Below, piece by piece: positions 3,884 through 57,856 of a stretch of 64,000 bases of DNA. Made by a program: the position numbers and the translations under genes. The DNA is from Saccharopolyspora gloriosae (GTDB lineage: Bacteria; Actinomycetota; Actinomycetes; Mycobacteriales; Pseudonocardiaceae): positions 6,123,470 to 6,187,469 of the forward strand of contig NZ_CP059557.1 of NCBI RefSeq assembly GCF_022828475.1, written 5' to 3'. Under the pieces are notes generated by a model that made no database searches, had not been told where the DNA came from, and worked only from the letters and a program-made list of their open reading frames with translations. Each line of letters begins with the position of its first letter. Position 1 is the first letter of the stretch.

Positions 3884-4248
3884 TTTGCTTTGGGGGTCGG
3901 GTGGCGGAACCTCAGTTGGTCTCTCGCTGCGGGATCTTTTTCCCAAGTGGCTCCGCCACGAGGGAAAAAGCTGTCCTCGCGAGAGACCAACTGAGAACCC
4001 GCTGGTGAGCGGCTTTTTGACGTGGGCTATGCGCTTCGCGCATACAGGCACGGCCTTCGGCCGCCAGGCACGGCTTGCTTCGCTGCCGCACGGCACGGCT
4101 TCGCCGCAAGGCACGGCTTCGCCGCAAGGCACGGCTTCGCCGCAAGGCACGGCTTCGCCGCAAGGCACGGCTTGCTTCGCTGCCGCACGGCACGGCTACG
4201 CCGCGAGGCAGGCGGGGCTTTGCCCGCCCTTCGCGGGCTTCGCCGTTG
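3884..4248 (+). repeat. Dispersed 3'-end hairpin element, copy A (full length)
   Basis: This fills most of the 479-bp gap between the convergent ends of hpd and ilvA. It has three modules. The first is a leader ending GGGTGGCGGAACC. The second is an 85-nt hairpin (3911-3995) with a 17-bp perfect outer stem CTCAGTTGGTCTCTCGC / GCGAGAGACCAACTGAG and an inner TTTTTCCC / GGGAAAAA stem. The third is a tail of small TTC-loop hairpins: ATGCGC-TTC-GCGCAT, then four perfect 18-bp units GGCACGGCTTCGCCGCAA at 4092-4163, then a GCCCGCC-rich end. The same order occurs in copy E at 42192. Short peptide frames across the tail have no ribosome site and are artefacts of the 18-bp period. Confidence 0.9.
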
Positions 4249-5989: not shown

Positions 5990-6207
5990 CAAAGCCGACT
6001 CCTTGCGGCCGAAGGCCGTGCCTGTATGTGCGAAGCACATAGCCCACGTCAAAAAAACGACCACCCGCGGGTTCTCAGCTGTCTTCTCGCGAGGACAGCT
6101 TTTTCCCTCGTGGCGGAGCCACTAGGGAAAAAGATCCCGCAGCGAGAAGACAGCTGAGGTTCCGCCACCCGGACACCCAAGCAAAAAGACCGGTCAGCCG
6201 ACCAACA
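5990..6207 (-). repeat. Dispersed 3'-end hairpin element, copy B
   Basis: Read on the minus strand, this begins five bases after the metB stop. It carries GGTCGGCTGACCGGTCTTTTT, which looks like a small intrinsic terminator. It continues with the GGGTGGCGGAACC leader and the 85-nt hairpin (6074-6158), whose stem is CTCAGCTGTCTTCTCGC / GCGAGAAGACAGCTGAG. The ATGTGC-TTC-GCACAT hairpin follows, with one GGCC-TTC-GGCC unit. It lacks the long 18-bp array. It is nearly identical over about 180 bp to copy F, 51.6 kb away. Confidence 0.88.
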
Positions 6208-7491: not shown

Positions 7492-8850
7492 TCACCACTG
7501 GGGCGGCTGCTGCCCCGGCTGCTGCGGGTAGCCGCCGGGCTGCTGGCCGTACTGCGGCGGCTGCCCGTACTGCGGCTGGCCGGGCTGCTGGCCGAACTGC
7601 TGCGGGTCGCCGTACTGCGGCTGGCCCGGCTGCGGCTGCCCGGGCTGGGGCTGGCCGTAGGGGTTCGGCTGCCCCGGCTGCGGCTGCCCGTACTGCGGCT
7701 GGCCCGGCTGGCCGAACTGCTGCGGGTCGCCGTACTGCGGCTGGCCCGGCTGCGGCTGCCCGGGCTGGGGCTGGCCGTAGGGGTTCGGCTGCCCCGGCTG
7801 CGGCTGCCCGAACTGCGGCTGGCCCGGCTGGCTGAACTGCGGCTGCGCCGCGTAGGGCTGCTGGGCGTAACCGGCCTGCGGGCCGCTCTGCGCGCCGGGA
7901 CCGGCGGCGATCCATTCCCGCGTCGCGGGCAAGATCGCCAGCACCGTGATGGCGATGTAGATGAGGGCCCCGACGATGCCGGCGACGAGCAACCCGACGC
8001 TCGTGGCGAAGCCGATCGAACTGATCAGCTGGAGCAACGCGGAGACCCCCGCACCACCGGCCGTCACGTACGGGCCGAGCGGCTTGCGAGTGATCAGGAA
8101 GATGCCGCCGACCAGCATCGCGATGGAGGCCAGCAACTGGAGCACGATGATGAAACCGTTGCCCGCCCCGACGAAACCGAGCGCCGCGGCACCGAACAGG
8201 CCGATCACCCCGAGGAGCCCGGAGAGGGTCCCCAGCCCGCCGAAGACCGCGGCGACCCAGCCGACGACCTTCGCGATCGTGCCGTTCTCGGCGCCCGCGC
8301 CCGCCGGCTTGCCGATGGCGGGCGGCTGCTGCGGGAAGCCGCCCTGGCCGGGGTATGCCTGCGGCGGCGGTGCGCCGAAACCGGCCTGCGGGGCGGGGAA
8401 TCCGCCGCCGGGAGTGCCTGCCTGCGGCGGCTGCTGCGGGAAGCCGCCGGGCTGGCTCTGGGTGCCCGGCTGGCTGTACATCGGCTGCGGGGGCTGCATC
8501 GACGGCGGCACCATCTGCGTCGCCGACTCACCGCCCTGCGCGTTGCCGGGCTGTTCGTACATCGGCTGTGGCGGCTGCATCGACGGCGGCACCACCTGCG
8601 TCGAGTCCCCACCGGCCTGCTGCGCGGGACGCACGACCTGGGTGGAATCGGCGGACGCCTGGCCGGAGTTCTGGTCCAGCTGCGCGGGGCGGACGACCTG
8701 AGTGGCGTCCGCGCCGGAGGACTGTTCGGTGGCCGGGGTCTGCGGGTCCAGCTGAGAACCGATCTCTGAGCCGGCGGCCTGCGCCTCTGACTCGGTCCCC
8801 TGCGGTTGCTGTCCCTGCTGACCGCCGTCCGGCGGCTGCGGAGAGCTCAT
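7492..8850 (-). CDS. Pro/Gln-rich membrane protein, similar to mycobacterial proline-rich antigen
   Basis: A 452-residue protein in three parts. The N-terminal 210 residues are disordered and rich in Gln, Pro, Gly and Ser, with repeated STQVVRPAQ and [15 protein letters not shown] motifs that could be phosphorylated or bind partners. The middle (about 215-330) has four hydrophobic segments ([73 protein letters not shown]). The C-terminus is a low-complexity tail of [11 protein letters not shown]-like repeats. Its place between metB and cbs is that of M. tuberculosis Rv1078 (pra), so the same family is likely. The ATG has AGGAA upstream; an earlier in-frame start has no such site. Molecular function is unknown. 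Confidence 0.8.
7591..7830 (-). repeat. Two 120-bp tandem units in the C-terminal tail
   Basis: Bases 7591-7690 and 7711-7810 are identical and the remainder of each unit is nearly so. This makes a 40-codon duplication within the repetitive tail of the Pro/Gln-rich protein. Near-identity implies a recent slip or unequal exchange, so the tail length may vary between strains. Confidence 0.9.
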
Positions 8851-8952
8851 CGGGTTTCCTGACCCCCTTGGGCGTAAAGCATGAGTCTGAAGCGAGTTGA
8901 TCCACACGCTATCCGATATGTCAGCAGCGTAGCGGCCGTCCGTAACGAAAAG

Positions 8953-13097: not shown

Positions 13098-13306
13098 CCG
13101 GCGGCGAAGCCGTTCTTTGCGGCCGAAGGCCGTGCCTGAATGCGCGAAGCGCATAGCCCACGCAAGCAAGGTGACCACCGGCGGGTTCTCAGGTGTCTTC
13201 TCGCGAGGACAGCTTTTTCCCTCGTGGCGGAGCCACTTGGGAAAAAGATCCCGCAGCGAGAAGACACCTGAGGTTCCGCTACCCGACCACCCAAGCCGAA
13301 CGACCG
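13098..13306 (-). repeat. Dispersed 3'-end hairpin element, copy C
   Basis: On the minus strand this starts about two bases after the stop of the Bax1-I gene. The leader is GGGTAGCGGAACC. The 85-nt hairpin (13188-13272) has the stem CTCAGGTGTCTTCTCGC / GCGAGAAGACACCTGAG, a third version of the stem in which both arms have changed together. The tail has ATGCGC-TTC-GCGCAT and GGCC-TTC-GGCC hairpins. Between the thiolase terminator and this element I see nothing else. Confidence 0.88.
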
Positions 13307-16639: not shown

Positions 16640-16811
16640 TAGTGGCCGGGTAGCGGAACCTCAGCGGTCTTCTCGCTGCGGGATCTTTTTCCCGAGTGGG
16701 CTCCGCTCCGCGACGAGGGAAAAGGCCGTCCTCGCGAGAAGACAGCTGAGAACCCGCCGGTGGTTCGGCCTGCTGAGGTGGTCACTGCTCAGCGGCTTCG
16801 CCGCTGACAAG
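16640..16811 (+). repeat. Dispersed 3'-end hairpin element, copy D (divergent)
   Basis: Starts seven bases after the sortase stop in the same direction. The leader GGGTAGCGGAACC is followed by a 91-nt hairpin (16660-16750). The outer stem has one G/A mismatch, and the inner GTGGC/GCCAC stem is replaced by a longer GC-rich loop. The tail is reduced to one CAGCGGC-TTC-GCCGCTG hairpin. It is the most altered of the six hairpin-bearing copies. Confidence 0.8.
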
Positions 16812-27128: not shown

Positions 27129-30100
27129 TCACTCGCACGGCGGGTCGTACGGGATCTGCGGGATCGTCTGCTCCCACTTGTCCTTCGGCAGCGCCCCGCG
27201 CGTGGCGTCGCAGATCCGCTCCAGCGCCCGATCGGCGTCCAGGTCCCACAGGTAGGCGGTGTTGTCCCCGCTGGCCGAGGCCACGATGCTCCCGTCCGGA
27301 CTGAAGGCCACGGTGTGCACCATCGCCCGGTGCTCGTTGAGGGAGAGCCCGATCGGCTCTGCCCGCTCCCGGTCCTCGACGTCCCACAACCGGGCCGTGC
27401 GGTCCTCGCTGCCGGTCACCAACGTCTTGCCGTCCGGGCTGAACCTGGCCGACTTGACGTTCTGGGAGTGCCCGACCAGCGGCGAACCGAGCTCCCTCGG
27501 GGCCTCCGGGTCCTCGATGTCCCACAACCGCGCCGTCTTGTCACCGCCCGCGGTGGCGATGGTCCGCCCGTCCGGGCTGAACGCCAAGGTGAGCACCGTC
27601 GAGTGCCCCGGATCCCATCCGTGCACGAGCACGGGGTGGTCCGGGTCGGCGACGTTCCACAGCCGGACCGTGCCGTCGCTGCTGCCGGTCGCCAACATCG
27701 TGCCGTCCGGGCTGAACGCCGCCTCGTTGATGTAGCCGCGATGCCCGAGCAGCGGCGTGCCCACCCGCACCGGGTGCGCCGGGTCCTCGACGTTCCACAA
27801 CTGAGCGCTGAGGTCGTCGTTGCCGGTGACCAGCGTCCGCCCGTCCGGGCTGAACGCCACTTCGCCCATGTACCGGGTACCGACCGGCAGCGGCTCGCCG
27901 AGCGGTTCAGGCGCCGCCGGATCGCTCATGTCCCACAACCGCACCGTTCCGGCCCCACCGCCGGTGGCCAGCACTCGGCCGTCCGGGCTGAACGCCGTCG
28001 CGTACACCGACCCGACCGGCCCCTCGTAGACCTCCAGCGGTTCGCCCAGCGGCCGCGGCAACCGCGGATTCGAGGTGTCCCACACCCGCACCGTCCGGTC
28101 CTCGCTGGCGGTGACCAGGATCCGCCCGTCCGGCCGGAACAACGCGTCGTTGACGCTCGCGGTGTGCCCGCCGAGAACCCGATCCGGCAACGACCACAAC
28201 CGCACGGCACCGTCGTCGCCGCCGGTGGCCAGGGTGTGCCCGTCCGGGCTGAAGCCGACCGCGAACACCGTGCTGCTGCCCGCGCTGAGGTTGTGCCCGA
28301 TCTGACTCGCGTTCGACGGGTCCGCCACGTTCCACAGCAACGCGGAGCTGTCCGCGCTACCGGAGGCCAGCGTCCGCCCGTCCGGGCTGAACTTCACCGA
28401 CCACACCGGCCCGTCGTGCCCGATGAGGGCGGGTCCGAGTTGCCGCGCGCGCACCGGGTCGTGCACGTCCCACAACCGAATCGTCTTGTCCACGCTGCCG
28501 GATGCCAGCGTTCGGCCGTCCGGGCTGAACGCCACCGAGTGCATGCCTTCGGTGTGCCCCTCCAACGGCTTCCCGAGCGAAACCGGCCGGGCCGGATCGG
28601 CCACGTTCCACAACCGGATGGTCCGATCGTCACCGCTGGTCGCCAAGGTGCGTCCGTCCGGGCTGAACGCCAAGGTCCGCACCTGCTCGGTGTGCCCCTT
28701 CATCGGGGCGCTCACCGGGACGGGATGCGCCGGGTCGGCGACGTTCCACAGCCGCGCCGTCCGGTTCTCGTTCGCCGTGGCCAACGTGCGGCCGTCCGGG
28801 CTGAACGCGATCAGGTAGATCGTGCCGTCGTCGGCGGTGACCGGCGGACCGAGTTGCTTCGGCCGAGCGGGGTCGACCACGTCGTAGAGCCGGACCATGT
28901 GGTCGTCGCCCGCCGCTGCCAAGGTGCGCCCGTCGGGGCTGAACACGGCCGAGGTCACCCAGCTGCCGAAACCCCGCAGCGGCGGTCCCAGCGGCGTCGG
29001 CCTGCTCCGGTCGGACACGTCCCACAACCGCACGGTCCGGTCGTATCCGGCGGTGACGAGCGTCCGGCCGTCCGGGCTGAACGTCGTCAGGTAGATCGAA
29101 CTCGTATGCCCGAACATCGGCGTGCCCAGCGCGGAGTTCTGGGTGGACAGCACCCGGCTGTCCACCGCCGGGTCGTCCGGGCGCAGCCGCGTGGCCACCA
29201 GGTTCAGCTTCGCCGCCGCGGAGGGATCGACCTCCTGCAACCGGTCGGCCTGCGCCAGCACCTGGCGGAACTCGGCGTCGTCACGCGCCCGCACCGCCAG
29301 CACCGCCGCCACCGCGGCCACCGCGGCGAACACGCACACCGCGGCCGCGGTGCCCCGCTGGAACCAGCCCACCCGGCGCCGGTGCCGCAGCGATGCGGCG
29401 AGGAAGTCGTGGCTGACCGCGGACAACTCCGCCGGATCCACCTGTTCGGCCCAATGCCCGGCGTTCTCCAACCGGGCACCGCGGTAGAGCAGCGACACGT
29501 CCCGGTTCTCCTGGCGCCACGCCTCCGCGTCGCGCTCCAGCCGCTGCCGGGCCAGGTTCCCCGCGCGGTCCTGGTCGATCCAGCCGCGCAACCGGGGCCA
29601 CGCGTACAGCAGCGCCTCGTGGCTGATCTCGGCGGAATCCGAGTCCAGCGTCACCAACCGGGCGGTCGTCAGCACGTTCAGCGCCCGCCGGGCCGCCTCC
29701 CGGTGCTCGGCGTGCTCGACGATCTCCGCGTACGTCGCGCGCCTGCGGGTGTCCTGGGTGTCCTCGCCGACGTGCACCAGCCGCAGCAGCACTTGCCGTG
29801 CCGCCGCCTGCCCGTCCTCGGCGAGCTCCGCCCACGCACGTTCCGCGGTGGCCGCCACCGCTCCTTGGATGCCGCCCGCCGCGCGATAGCCGGCGATGGT
29901 GAGCTTGCCGCTCTGCCTGCGCTGCCAGGTCACCAGCAACGCGTGCGACAGCAGCGGCAGCGCACCCGCGTCGTAGGCCCGCTGCGCCGGTTTGCCGTAG
30001 GCGCGGCCCACGCTCACGCCGAGGTCGCGCAGCAGCACGTCGACCAAGCCCGGTTCGATCTGCAGGCCGGTGGCCTTCGCCGGTCCGGTGATGGCCTTGC

Positions 30101-31238
30101 GCAGTTCGGCCACTGTCATAGCGCCGAGCACCATCTGGCGGTGCTGCAAGGCGTCGGCGAGTTCGGGAAAGTCCAGGCACCGCGCGTAGAAATCGGCCCG
30201 TAACCCCAGCACCACCAGCCCCGGCGAGGTGCCGCCCGCGAATCCCGTGGTGCAGCAGGCCTGCAGGACCCGCACGAACAGGGCGCGCCGGTTCTCGTCC
30301 CGGCACACCGTGAACGTTTCCTCGAACTGGTCCACCACCAGCACCAGCCGGGCCTCGTCGCCGACCACGTCCCGCACGTGCCCGGCGACGGCGTCGCGCA
30401 CGGACTCCGCGAATCGGAAGTCCTCGTCCGAGTTCTCCTCGCCCGTGCTCGCGGCGCCCCCGTCCGCCTCGTCGCGCTCGGCGGCGGCGAGGACCTCGTT
30501 GAGTTCGGGGATCAGCTCGGTCAGGGACTTCAGCGGATCCTCACCCGGAGTCATGGTCCGCACCGGCCACGACGACGAACCCTGCTCCGCCAGCGCGCCA
30601 CCGGTCAGCGCAGGCAGCAGACCCGCCCCCAGCAGCGAGGACTTCCCCGCTCCCGAGGCGCCGACGAGCATCGTGATGCCACCGTCGTCGGCCGCGGTGG
30701 CGAGGCGTTCCACCAGGGTGGTGGTGGCGCGTTCACGCCCGAAGAACCAGCCGGAATCGCCCTCGTTGAACGCGGCCAGCCCGCGATACGGGCAGAGGCC
30801 TTCCTCCGCCGCCGCGCTCTGCTCCGGCTGAGTCCCGTTGGTGCCGCGCGCACCCGTGCCCACCGGCGCCTCCGGTGTGGCCAGCGGGCTGGTCAGCGCC
30901 TCTTCCCACCGAGCGCGCCACACCGCCAAGTCGTACAGTCCGTCGACCGGGGGCTGCGGCTGGTTCTTCCGCGCCTCACCGATGAGGATCTCCAGCACCA
31001 CCGACAGGGCGGCGAACCTGGCGGGCACGTTGCGTCCCCGGCGCCAGTCACTGATGCGCTGGGCGGTCGACCGGATCGGCCTGCCCCGTTCGTCGAGCCG
31101 CCGGACCCGTTCCACGGCATCGGCGACCCGCTTCAGCGGTGGGTCGCCTGCCGTCACGTACAGCAGGGCGAACCGCTCCGCGAACAGCGCACGAGTGCCG
31201 GTGCCCGCCGCCGAAGTCCCCGCATTCCGGTCCGTCAT
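27129..31238 (-). CDS. nSTAND NTPase with N-terminal HTH-like region and 14 WD40 repeats
   Basis: A 1369-residue signal-transduction ATPase. Residues 15-90 hold a helix-turn-helix-like region (RSTAQRISDWRRGRNVPARF). Residues 148-170 (CPYRGLAAFNEGDSGWFFGRE) open the STAND module. Walker A is LVGASGAGKSS (about 191-201) and Walker B is RLVLVVDQFEE (about 297-307). A winged-helix region with GALPLLSHALLVTWQRR follows. One predicted membrane helix lies at 629-649. From about 700 to 1345 there are fourteen WD40 repeats, each with FSPDGRTLATG...RLWDV, enough for two seven-bladed propellers. Such proteins oligomerise when the propeller binds a ligand. No catalytic effector domain is obvious, so the output may be the HTH region or a partner protein. 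Codon 346 is TTA. Confidence 0.9.
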   Translation of the reverse strand: MTDRNAGTSAAGTGTRALFAERFALLYVTAGDPPLKRVADAVERVRRLDERGRPIRSTAQRISDWRRGRNVPARFAALSVVLEILIGEARKNQPQPPVDGLYDLAVWRARWEEALTSPLATPEAPVGTGARGTNGTQPEQSAAAEEGLCPYRGLAAFNEGDSGWFFGRERATTTLVERLATAADDGGITMLVGASGAGKSSLLGAGLLPALTGGALAEQGSSSWPVRTMTPGEDPLKSLTELIPELNEVLAAAERDEADGGAASTGEENSDEDFRFAESVRDAVAGHVRDVVGDEARLVLVVDQFEETFTVCRDENRRALFVRVLQACCTTGFAGGTSPGLVVLGLRADFYARCLDFPELADALQHRQMVLGAMTVAELRKAITGPAKATGLQIEPGLVDVLLRDLGVSVGRAYGKPAQRAYDAGALPLLSHALLVTWQRRQSGKLTIAGYRAAGGIQGAVAATAERAWAELAEDGQAAARQVLLRLVHVGEDTQDTRRRATYAEIVEHAEHREAARRALNVLTTARLVTLDSDSAEISHEALLYAWPRLRGWIDQDRAGNLARQRLERDAEAWRQENRDVSLLYRGARLENAGHWAEQVDPAELSAVSHDFLAASLRHRRRVGWFQRGTAAAVCVFAAVAAVAAVLAVRARDDAEFRQVLAQADRLQEVDPSAAAKLNLVATRLRPDDPAVDSRVLSTQNSALGTPMFGHTSSIYLTTFSPDGRTLVTAGYDRTVRLWDVSDRSRPTPLGPPLRGFGSWVTSAVFSPDGRTLAAAGDDHMVRLYDVVDPARPKQLGPPVTADDGTIYLIAFSPDGRTLATANENRTARLWNVADPAHPVPVSAPMKGHTEQVRTLAFSPDGRTLATSGDDRTIRLWNVADPARPVSLGKPLEGHTEGMHSVAFSPDGRTLASGSVDKTIRLWDVHDPVRARQLGPALIGHDGPVWSVKFSPDGRTLASGSADSSALLWNVADPSNASQIGHNLSAGSSTVFAVGFSPDGHTLATGGDDGAVRLWSLPDRVLGGHTASVNDALFRPDGRILVTASEDRTVRVWDTSNPRLPRPLGEPLEVYEGPVGSVYATAFSPDGRVLATGGGAGTVRLWDMSDPAAPEPLGEPLPVGTRYMGEVAFSPDGRTLVTGNDDLSAQLWNVEDPAHPVRVGTPLLGHRGYINEAAFSPDGTMLATGSSDGTVRLWNVADPDHPVLVHGWDPGHSTVLTLAFSPDGRTIATAGGDKTARLWDIEDPEAPRELGSPLVGHSQNVKSARFSPDGKTLVTGSEDRTARLWDVEDRERAEPIGLSLNEHRAMVHTVAFSPDGSIVASASGDNTAYLWDLDADRALERICDATRGALPKDKWEQTIPQIPYDPPCE

Positions 31239-42191: not shown

Positions 42192-42525
42192 TTTGCTTTG
42201 GGGGTCGGGTGGCGGAACCTCAGTTGGTCTCTCGCTGCGGGATCTTTTTCCCTAGTGGCTCCGCCACGAGGGAAAAAGCTGTCCTCGCGAGAGACCAACT
42301 GAGAACCCGCTGGTGAGCGGCTTCTTGACGTGGGCTATGTGCTTCGCACATACAGGCACGGCCTCCGGCCGCAAAGCACGGCTTGCTTCGCTGCCGCAAG
42401 GCACGGCCTTCGGCCGCAAGGCACGGCTTGCTTCGCTGCCGCAAGGCACGGCCTCCGGCCGCAAAGCACGGCTACGCCGCAAGGCAGGCGGGGCGTTGCC
42501 CGCCCTTCGTGGGTTTCGCCGCTGA
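42192..42525 (+). repeat. Dispersed 3'-end hairpin element, copy E (full length)
   Basis: Same three modules as copy A and the same hairpin stem (42219-42303; CTCAGTTGGTCTCTCGC and its complement). The tail differs: ATGTGC-TTC-GCACAT replaces ATGCGC-TTC-GCGCAT, with pairing kept. The 18-bp array is replaced by two alternating longer units containing GGCC-TTC-GGCC and GGCC-TCC-GGCC hairpins. The GC-rich end module GCAGGCGGGG...TTCGCCGCTGA matches copies A and F. It fills most of the 440-bp gap 42178-42617. Confidence 0.9.
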
Positions 42526-57463: not shown

Positions 57464-57856
57464 AGCCAGCGGCGAAGCCCGCAAAGGGCGCGCAAAGCCC
57501 CACCTGCCTTACGGCGAAGCCATGCCTTATGGCGAAGCCATGCCTTATGGCGAAGCCATGCCCTGCGGCGAAGCCATGCCTCGTGGCGAAGCCATGCCTC
57601 GTGGCGAAGCCATGCCTCGTGGCGAAGCCATGCCCTGCGGCGAAGCCATGCCTCGTGGCGAAGCCGTGCCTGTATGTGCGAAGCACATAGCCCACGTCAA
57701 GAAAACGACCACCCGCGGGTTCTCAGCTGTCTTCTCGCGAGGACAGCTTTTCCCTCGTGGCGGAGCCACTAGGGAAAAAGATCCCGCAGCGAGAAGACAG
57801 CTGAGGTTCCGCCACCCGGACACCCAAGCAAAAAGACCGGTCAGCCGACCAACACA
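57464..57856 (-). repeat. Dispersed 3'-end hairpin element, copy F (with long array)
   Basis: Read on the minus strand, this begins about four bases after the stop of the transglycosylase lipoprotein gene. The terminator-like GGTCGGCTGACCGGTCTTTTT, the GGGTGGCGGAACC leader and the 84-nt hairpin (57722-57805) are nearly identical to copy B, but one T is missing from an inner T-run. ATGTGC-TTC-GCACAT follows, then nine 18-bp units, then the GC-rich end module shared with A and E. It occupies most of the 514-bp gap 57346-57859. Confidence 0.9.
57507..57668 (-). repeat. Nine 18-bp tandem units with TTC-loop hairpins
   Basis: Nine consecutive units of the form GGCATGGCTTCGCCACGA (minus strand) with small changes. 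Each forms TGGC-TTC-GCCA, extended in two units to ATGGC-TTC-GCCAT. In copy A the same units form CGGC-TTC-GCCG, so both sides of the mini-stem have changed together. Frames reading through give a six-residue peptide repeat, but no ribosome site supports translation. Confidence 0.9.

Follow-up and report, generated by a model that had tools for sequence, protein, structure and literature searches.

A single homologous family of covarying hairpins, reused behind unrelated genes across the family Pseudonocardiaceae and absent from Rfam 15, is represented by six copies in a window of 64,000 nucleotides from Saccharopolyspora gloriosae (contig NZ_CP059557.1, positions 6,123,470 to 6,187,469). The copies keep one fold with fixed internal loops, lie in mRNA direction at a regular spacing past stop codons and at the ends of transcription units, turn over between species, and are homogenised. 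It is this homologous, family-wide reuse that appears to be new; dispersed palindromic elements able to act at transcript ends are known already. Judged from sequence, the element is, somewhat more probably than any other function, a structured putative transcript-end hairpin, i.e., a terminator without a U-tract or a barrier at the 3′ end.

An earlier note on this DNA had described six dispersed copies with compensating stem changes, and inspection of the sequence found all six where it had placed them (Table 1). A covariance model, R1, which was built from 62 copies including none of these six, returned exactly the same six from the 64-kb window with filters off (E 1.9e-28 to 1.7e-22), and a seventh copy is absent, the best remaining match having E 0.04. 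A weak echo on the opposite strand accompanies each of the six, because the element is a palindrome. The element is nonetheless directional, a property that the note had not mentioned, with copies A, D and E on the forward strand and B, C and F on the reverse strand, and the genes upstream of the six copies bear no relation to one another. The spans in the note comprised the main hairpin plus a tail, and the part kept across genera is the main hairpin. Three perfectly paired versions of a 17-bp outer stem had been claimed, i.e., CTCAGTTGGTCTCTCGC in A and E, CTCAGCTGTCTTCTCGC in B and F, and CTCAGGTGTCTTCTCGC in C, and the 3′ arm does match in each; copy D, also as claimed, retains 16 of the 17 pairs. 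The claimed change in a second hairpin, from ATGCGC/GCGCAT (A, C) to ATGTGC/GCACAT (B, E, F), stands for these five copies; D carries another small hairpin in this place. The TGGC/GCCA version of the tail mini-hairpins is present in copy F.

Table 1. Parts of the six element copies in the window (positions count from the first letter of the window)
Feature	Position	Strand	Basis and neighbouring gene
Copy A, main hairpin	3898..4012	+	R1 131.8 bits; 23 nt past stop of + gene ending 3874 (glyoxalase/dioxygenase family)
Copy A, second hairpin ATGCGC-TTC-GCGCAT and tandem mini-hairpins	4013..4248	+	sequence
Copy B, main hairpin	6057..6171	-	R1 133.0 bits; behind - gene ending 6212 (Cys/Met metabolism PLP enzyme)
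Copy B, second hairpin ATGTGC-TTC-GCACAT and short tail	5990..6056	-	sequence
Copy C, main hairpin	13171..13285	-	R1 132.8 bits; behind - gene ending 13308 (Bax inhibitor 1 like)
Copy C, second hairpin and short tail	13098..13170	-	sequence
Copy D, main hairpin, loop 6 nt longer	16647..16767	+	R1 107.1 bits; behind + gene ending 16633 (sortase)
Copy D, differing second hairpin CAGCGGC-TTC-GCCGCTG	16768..16811	+	sequence
Copy E, main hairpin	42206..42320	+	R1 131.0 bits; behind + gene ending 42177 (S-adenosyl methyltransferase)
Copy E, second hairpin and tandem mini-hairpins	42321..42525	+	sequence
Copy F, main hairpin	57705..57818	-	R1 125.6 bits; behind - gene ending 57860 (transglycosylase SLT domain)
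Copy F, second hairpin and tandem mini-hairpins (TGGC/GCCA)	57464..57704	-	sequence

Each tandem mini-hairpin measures about 18 nt (GGCACGGCTTCGCCGCAA type; window 4046-4206, 42354-42486 and 57487-57684); their number varies from copy to copy, and they resemble a rapidly evolving minisatellite joined to the element. Among the loci inspected, such 18-nt tail repeats occur in Saccharopolyspora only. Two further repeat regions lie on the reverse strand of the window. One, at 27129-31238, is a 1369-aa open frame spanning 138-nt direct repeats of 60-74% identity (27367-29086), which is probably a repeat protein. The other, the open frame at 7492-8907, includes 15/33-nt repeats (7509-7874) as well as one of 81 nt (8463-8620) and represents a low-complexity region of a protein.

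The note had proposed a covariance-model search of the genome and its relatives; searches by motif and by model find far more than six copies. The core 16-mer GCGGGATCTTTTTCCC, with up to two mismatches, matches the 6.88-Mb, one-contig window genome (hereafter G000) 179 times, 91 forward and 88 reverse, against 0 and 0 for the backward control of the same 16-mer; the matches are therefore not due to chance. The 1.22 Mb that were fully analysed (5.66-6.88 Mb) hold 56 copies with both end motifs and the core. An exact 22-mer, sought in 84,980 species genomes among which the window's own genome is possibly not included, was found in Saccharopolyspora sp. NFXS83 only, in 56 stretches; this genome is mostly 85-94% identical to the window genome over longer shared stretches. 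Several contigs of the NFXS83 draft (L035, L037, L055, L056, L066 and others) start inside the element, since repeats break assemblies. A DNA query matched 16 of 100 genomes, the window genome among them. R1 matches 55 of 200 genomes in 13 of the 46 genera of the family (own included), 21 of 298 genomes sampled from the order, all of them Pseudonocardiaceae but one (E 4e-4), and 2 of 394 sampled from the class, both Pseudonocardiaceae. The R1 surveys scored the best few candidates per genome under strict filters, so that their copy numbers are lower bounds and weak relatives may escape. Two tandem copies behind one gene, 184 nt from start to start, were seen in one genome (G204, L257 7880-8165).

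The main hairpin measures about 99 nt and contains two internal loops of fixed sequence with mismatches. At its 5′ foot stands GTRG in most copies, followed by GCGG paired with CCGC, by a 3×3 internal loop AAC/AAC, and by the 17-bp stem CTCAG-N7-CTCGC, the middle of which is free to vary; 26 distinct perfectly paired arms occur among the copies. Above this stem lies an asymmetric loop, mostly TSC opposite C, and then GGGAT paired with GUCCU, in which two wobble pairs are fixed on the element strand (195/200 and 196/201 copies). Beyond these come a CU bulge and an inner stem and loop whose type depends on the genus. A second short hairpin follows within 90 nt in 175 of 211 copies, as compared with 31 of 211 in shuffles, and in Saccharopolyspora it is often ATGYGC-TTC-GCRCAT with tandem mini-hairpins behind it.

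The stems covary well above shuffled and slid controls, as measured on an alignment of 62 sequences from 14 genomes and ten genera. Paired cells amount to 92.0% (80.2% when shuffled), pairs changed on both sides to 19 (14.4), cells changed on both sides to 267 (85.9), and the covariation score to 0.303 (0.097); at most one of 500 shuffles (0 or 1) reached the observed pairing and covariation values, with the proviso that kinship alone can also exceed this null. When the partner columns were slid by 1-3, at most 52% of cells were paired and the score was at most 0.117. The innermost helix is paired in just 65% of cells. Within one genus of the family, g34, three genomes (G111, G138 and G158) each have one detected copy, 18 candidates having been scored per genome, and in all three it lies behind gatB; the genes at this site are 91-94% identical. 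A comparison of the three orthologues shows both partners altered in six pairs of the 17-bp stem and only one partner in two others, and since each genome has a single detected copy, exchange between copies is an unlikely cause of the compensated changes. The covariation over controls and this orthologous site support the earlier claim that the fold of a single strand is maintained.

Whether that strand is RNA or DNA was approached via the imperfect pairs. If the mRNA strand alone mattered, G.U intermediates would be expected to exceed A.C mismatches. Over 31 pairs in 201 structure-aligned copies, non-Watson-Crick pairs number none in 116 copies, one in 34 and more in 51. No such signature of a sense RNA was found: G.U accounts for 60 cells and A.C for 86 (p 0.04, in the wrong direction), figures that are blurred by chimeric copies, and among the copies with a single mismatch there is likewise no excess of G.U (11 vs 15, p 0.56). 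The result is neutral to slightly against a sense RNA, and the pairing, which fits RNA or single-stranded DNA, does not decide between them. The RNA reading is preferred because of the placement of the element; the pairing data favour neither type of strand.

Placement was assessed against 1,046 genes in the 1.22 Mb, called by a codon-usage script whose individual calls may err. The left end of 42 of the 56 copies lies 5-50 nt past a co-oriented stop, as compared with 6.35% of random intergenic blocks (p 1e-38), and the right end lies 5-50 nt from a facing stop in 0 of 56. From stop to element the median spacing is 32 nt (IQR 29-36.5); for ordinary strong hairpins behind convergent genes that have no element it is 18 nt (n=105). 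Thirty-four copies occupy convergent gaps, which make up 48 of 250 kb of intergenic DNA, 19 same-direction gaps and 3 divergent gaps. Where the next gene runs in the same direction, at least 164 nt remain before it in 12 of 13 copies, so the element marks the ends of transcription units. For the other 14 of the 56, gene calling gave no co-oriented stop at 5-50 nt before the left end; one of these, at 5816892, lies upstream of a gene and against its direction at a place where NFXS83 has none, which indicates that some copies truly sit elsewhere than behind stops. In other genera, 20 of 27 copies lie 15-54 nt past a co-oriented stop, by a count made by eye in 20 stretches that were chosen from the better R1 matches, with two spurious in-gene motif matches dropped. 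Among facing genes, 9 of 29 own a strong hairpin, which speaks against a bidirectional terminator; as far as this weak evidence goes, the element seems to serve the gene that it follows rather than both convergent genes.

A site on DNA for a chromosome-organising or recombination protein, merely tolerated at gene ends, is a highly improbable reading of this distribution. The pairing data are compatible with a DNA hairpin, and the density along the chromosome is uneven: among the 100 exact core matches listed, 26 lie in 0-1 Mb, 22 in 1-2 Mb, 13 in 2-3 Mb, 4 in 3-4 Mb, 16 in 4-5 Mb and 19 in 5-5.69 Mb. However, the core matches have no strand bias (91 vs 88), the orientation strictly follows the mRNA, a site bound as duplex needs no covarying arms, and the g34 genomes have one detected copy each.

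As regards termination, the element shares with the canonical intrinsic terminator a stable GC-rich hairpin close behind the stop in mRNA direction, but it lies outside that class for want of the U-rich tract: the 8 nt that follow the stem contain at least 3 U in 8 of 216 copies. Ordinary strong hairpins of the window genome have at least 3 U in the next 8 nt in 32 of 105 cases, and U-poor ones are common among them. According to the relevant part of PMC8355165, transcript ends are marked by hairpin units that lie no more than 50 nt past the stop, are frequently clustered and have no need of poly-U, and a passage of PMC8269248 gives 353 structured 3′ ends lacking U against 182 U-rich ones in Streptomyces clavuligerus. 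In respect of spacing, part of PMC4824070 describes a terminator just several base pairs behind a gene as repressed, with efficiency rising with distance.

The element comes and goes between species. Between G000 and a second species, G001, 465 gene ends could be compared, the other 581 of the 1,046 genes having no usable counterpart in the compared stretches. An element in mRNA direction is present in both species at 10 ends, in G000 only at 20, in G001 only at 15, and in neither at 420. On the empty side of the 35 one-sided ends, the 400 nt searched contain no trace of an element at 20, single end motifs at 4, and an oppositely oriented copy, which belongs to the facing gene, at 11; these 11 ends correspond to 7 gene gaps, four of which are counted from both sides. 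In these 7 convergent gaps (e.g., G000 6464578-6464783 and 6742539-6742788) the direction of the element is opposite between the species, and it serves the other gene. At the 35 one-sided ends, interspecies similarity does not run on past the stop codon (a median of 0 nt); it extends beyond 30 nt in 1 of 35, and in 0 of the 20 clean ends, as compared with 54% among 76 and 71% among 41 convergent ends that lack the element. Almost the entire intergenic gap differs in the 16 filled/empty pairs inspected. Twelve of the 35 empty ends, and 7 of the 20 clean ones, carry an ordinary strong hairpin, as do 36 of 76 and 20 of 41 other convergent ends (shuffles 0 of 150), so that empty sites are not richer in them; a swap of one terminator for another at gene ends is a possible reading.

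Such turnover might also be that of a mainly mobile, non-autonomous element of MITE or REP type: an enzyme would act on its hairpin and the element would insert behind genes, with transcript ends affected, if at all, only incidentally. We regard this as somewhat unlikely, though as the most serious alternative. It would account for the 179 core matches in one genome, for the one-species-only ends (20 and 15 of 465, of which 20 have no trace in the other species), for similarity that ends at the stop codon, and for copies at shared sites that are no more alike than non-orthologous ones. Yet the 16 filled/empty pairs, which are about 90% identical and differ over the whole gap, showed neither a visible target-site duplication nor a constant right end. 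Flanking direct repeats were rejected as target duplications, since the two flanks of the same copy are not more alike than those of different copies (6.71 vs 6.97 in G000, 6.74 vs 6.98 in G001); in other genera the likeness is barely higher for the same copy (7.74 vs 7.41; shuffled about 6). In the clusters within 160 nt, no two end motifs were noticed that enclose a longer insert, as those of an autonomous partner with the same ends would, and nothing suggestive of a mobiliser stands beside single copies, as at gatB in three g34 genomes; these genomes, moreover, retain their one detected copy at the identical place. No match to the element was found in plasmids and phages at the sensitivity used, nor in viral contigs with one exact-box pattern, and on this basis a plasmid or phage origin was rejected.

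The more specific form of mobility, a REP element moved by a REP-associated tyrosine transposase (RAYT), deserves almost no credence. REPs carry a GTRG-type tag, and the element has a tag-like GTRG at the hairpin foot in most copies, besides being an extragenic palindrome in many copies. However, a search that was positive in Escherichia coli gave no Y1_Tnp (PF01797) match in G000, G001, G002 or G003 and none in 15 of the 23 carrier genomes in all, which rules out RAYT/REP for the window genome and also counts against the mobile-element reading in general. The size differs as well, with about 100 nt as against the 20-40 bp given for REPs in part of PMC3733652. In integron attC sites the outer boxes are the complementary AAC/GTT; those of the element are AAC/AAC, and it is the element that appears and disappears, the genes keeping their positions, so that integron gene cassettes were likewise rejected.

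The copies also recombine. At the 10 sites shared by G000 and G001, orthologous copies are 0.844 alike and non-orthologous ones 0.842 (p 0.39), so that the copies in these genomes evolve in concert, or else their sites are re-occupied. Copies 5960367 and 6439339 are chimeric, with mismatched arms of two types, and in a G001 copy (at the orthologue of the G000 gene ending 6474484) the inner block is inverted between CTCGC and GCGAG with the outer boxes unflipped, which together indicate that the palindromes recombine. A palindrome that corrects itself by template switching or gene conversion, between arms and between copies, would need no selection for its fold and is favoured by these chimeras and this inversion, by the 7 gaps with opposite direction, by the homogenisation and by the lack of a G.U excess. 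Nevertheless, we consider it very unlikely as the sole cause. The AAC/AAC loop stands between two paired blocks, yet of 202 distinct copies that were parsed none has turned this mismatch into a pair (AAC is kept on the left in 196 and on the right in 196; 10 more copies were unparsed), which speaks against plain arm-to-arm correction. In addition, the loop sequences are kept in ten genera beside a freely varying stem, and the orientation is strictly that of the mRNA.

The known systems that come closest differ from the element in distinct respects. U-poor (I-shaped type) terminators and hairpin clusters of GC-rich bacteria, as portrayed in parts of PMC8355165 and PMC8269248, likewise consist of strong GC-rich hairpins within about 50 nt past the stop, in mRNA direction and with no need of a U-tract, whereas those are unrelated sequences and the element is one homologous family of about 99 nt with fixed internal loops, found behind many genes in at least ten genera. 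REP/BIME sequences with RAYT are, as far as the accounts consulted go, likewise dispersed extragenic palindromes with a GTRG tag, often at gene ends; the element is three times longer, has several fixed loops, and occurs in a genome without Y1 transposase. The uptake-signal terminators of Neisseria and Haemophilus, in the portion of PMC1852404 concerned, are likewise a repeated sequence that doubles as a terminator behind genes, but they are made of two short facing signals, in contrast to one long structured element with, as far as known, no uptake system. MITEs and the enterobacterial RU elements (103-168 bp in the part of PMC2759123 that describes them) are likewise small, dispersed, intergenic and devoid of a transposase gene; here, however, no target duplication was seen in the 16 pairs and the orientation behind stops is strict. 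The statement of the earlier note that no named family fits agrees with Rfam 15, in which copy A scores far below threshold for every family; over the 64-kb window only a tRNA matched above the gathering score. No description of the element was found in the literature, as judged by titles, the beginnings of abstracts and passages: the main texts of the repeat surveys PMC3733652 and PMC2267715 do not mention Saccharopolyspora, nor is such a hairpin mentioned in passages from an RNA-seq study of S. erythraea (PMC3610266).

For the transcript-end reading, which we favour with modest confidence, the following course is proposed. The mRNA would continue past the stop codon into the element, the RNA of which would fold into the hairpin of about 99 nt with its two internal loops of fixed sequence; in most copies the second short hairpin comes next. 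With a spacing of about 30 nt, the long stem may form after the last ribosome has cleared the stop, and may then halt RNA polymerase, or bar exonucleases, with no need of a U-tract. The fixed internal loops would be contacts for a protein or for the polymerase, and the middle of the stem would need pairing only. In g34, with one detected copy per genome, the element is inherited in place; in Saccharopolyspora it has multiplied, and its copies are homogenised by a putative copying process, with gain and loss at different genes in each lineage. Near-identity over 100 nt at unrelated gene ends goes beyond what selection for termination alone would give, so a copying process is needed too, and the terminator and mobile-element readings do not exclude each other.

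Joining the two, we put forward tentatively, as an unlikely though consequential idea, that the element is a terminator that spreads itself, i.e., a family of structured elements of 3′ untranslated regions that copies itself to the place behind stops in mRNA direction, captures the transcript ends of unrelated genes, is homogenised within a genome, and has its loops read by a dedicated putative protein. If this were true, Pseudonocardiaceae genes would share an exchangeable, mobile 3′-end module. If the transcript-end reading holds, one homologous fold would give the transcript end of about 4% of the genes of an actinomycete genome (42 of the 1,046 called in 1.22 Mb). This fold would shift its place on the time scale of species, and would offer a natural experiment in which the 3′ end is swapped under an unchanged gene. 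It would also be a candidate strong terminator without U-tract for the engineering of actinomycetes, and a lead to a putative hairpin-binding protein. With the R1 model and the loops, the questions of termination and of mobility are directly testable.
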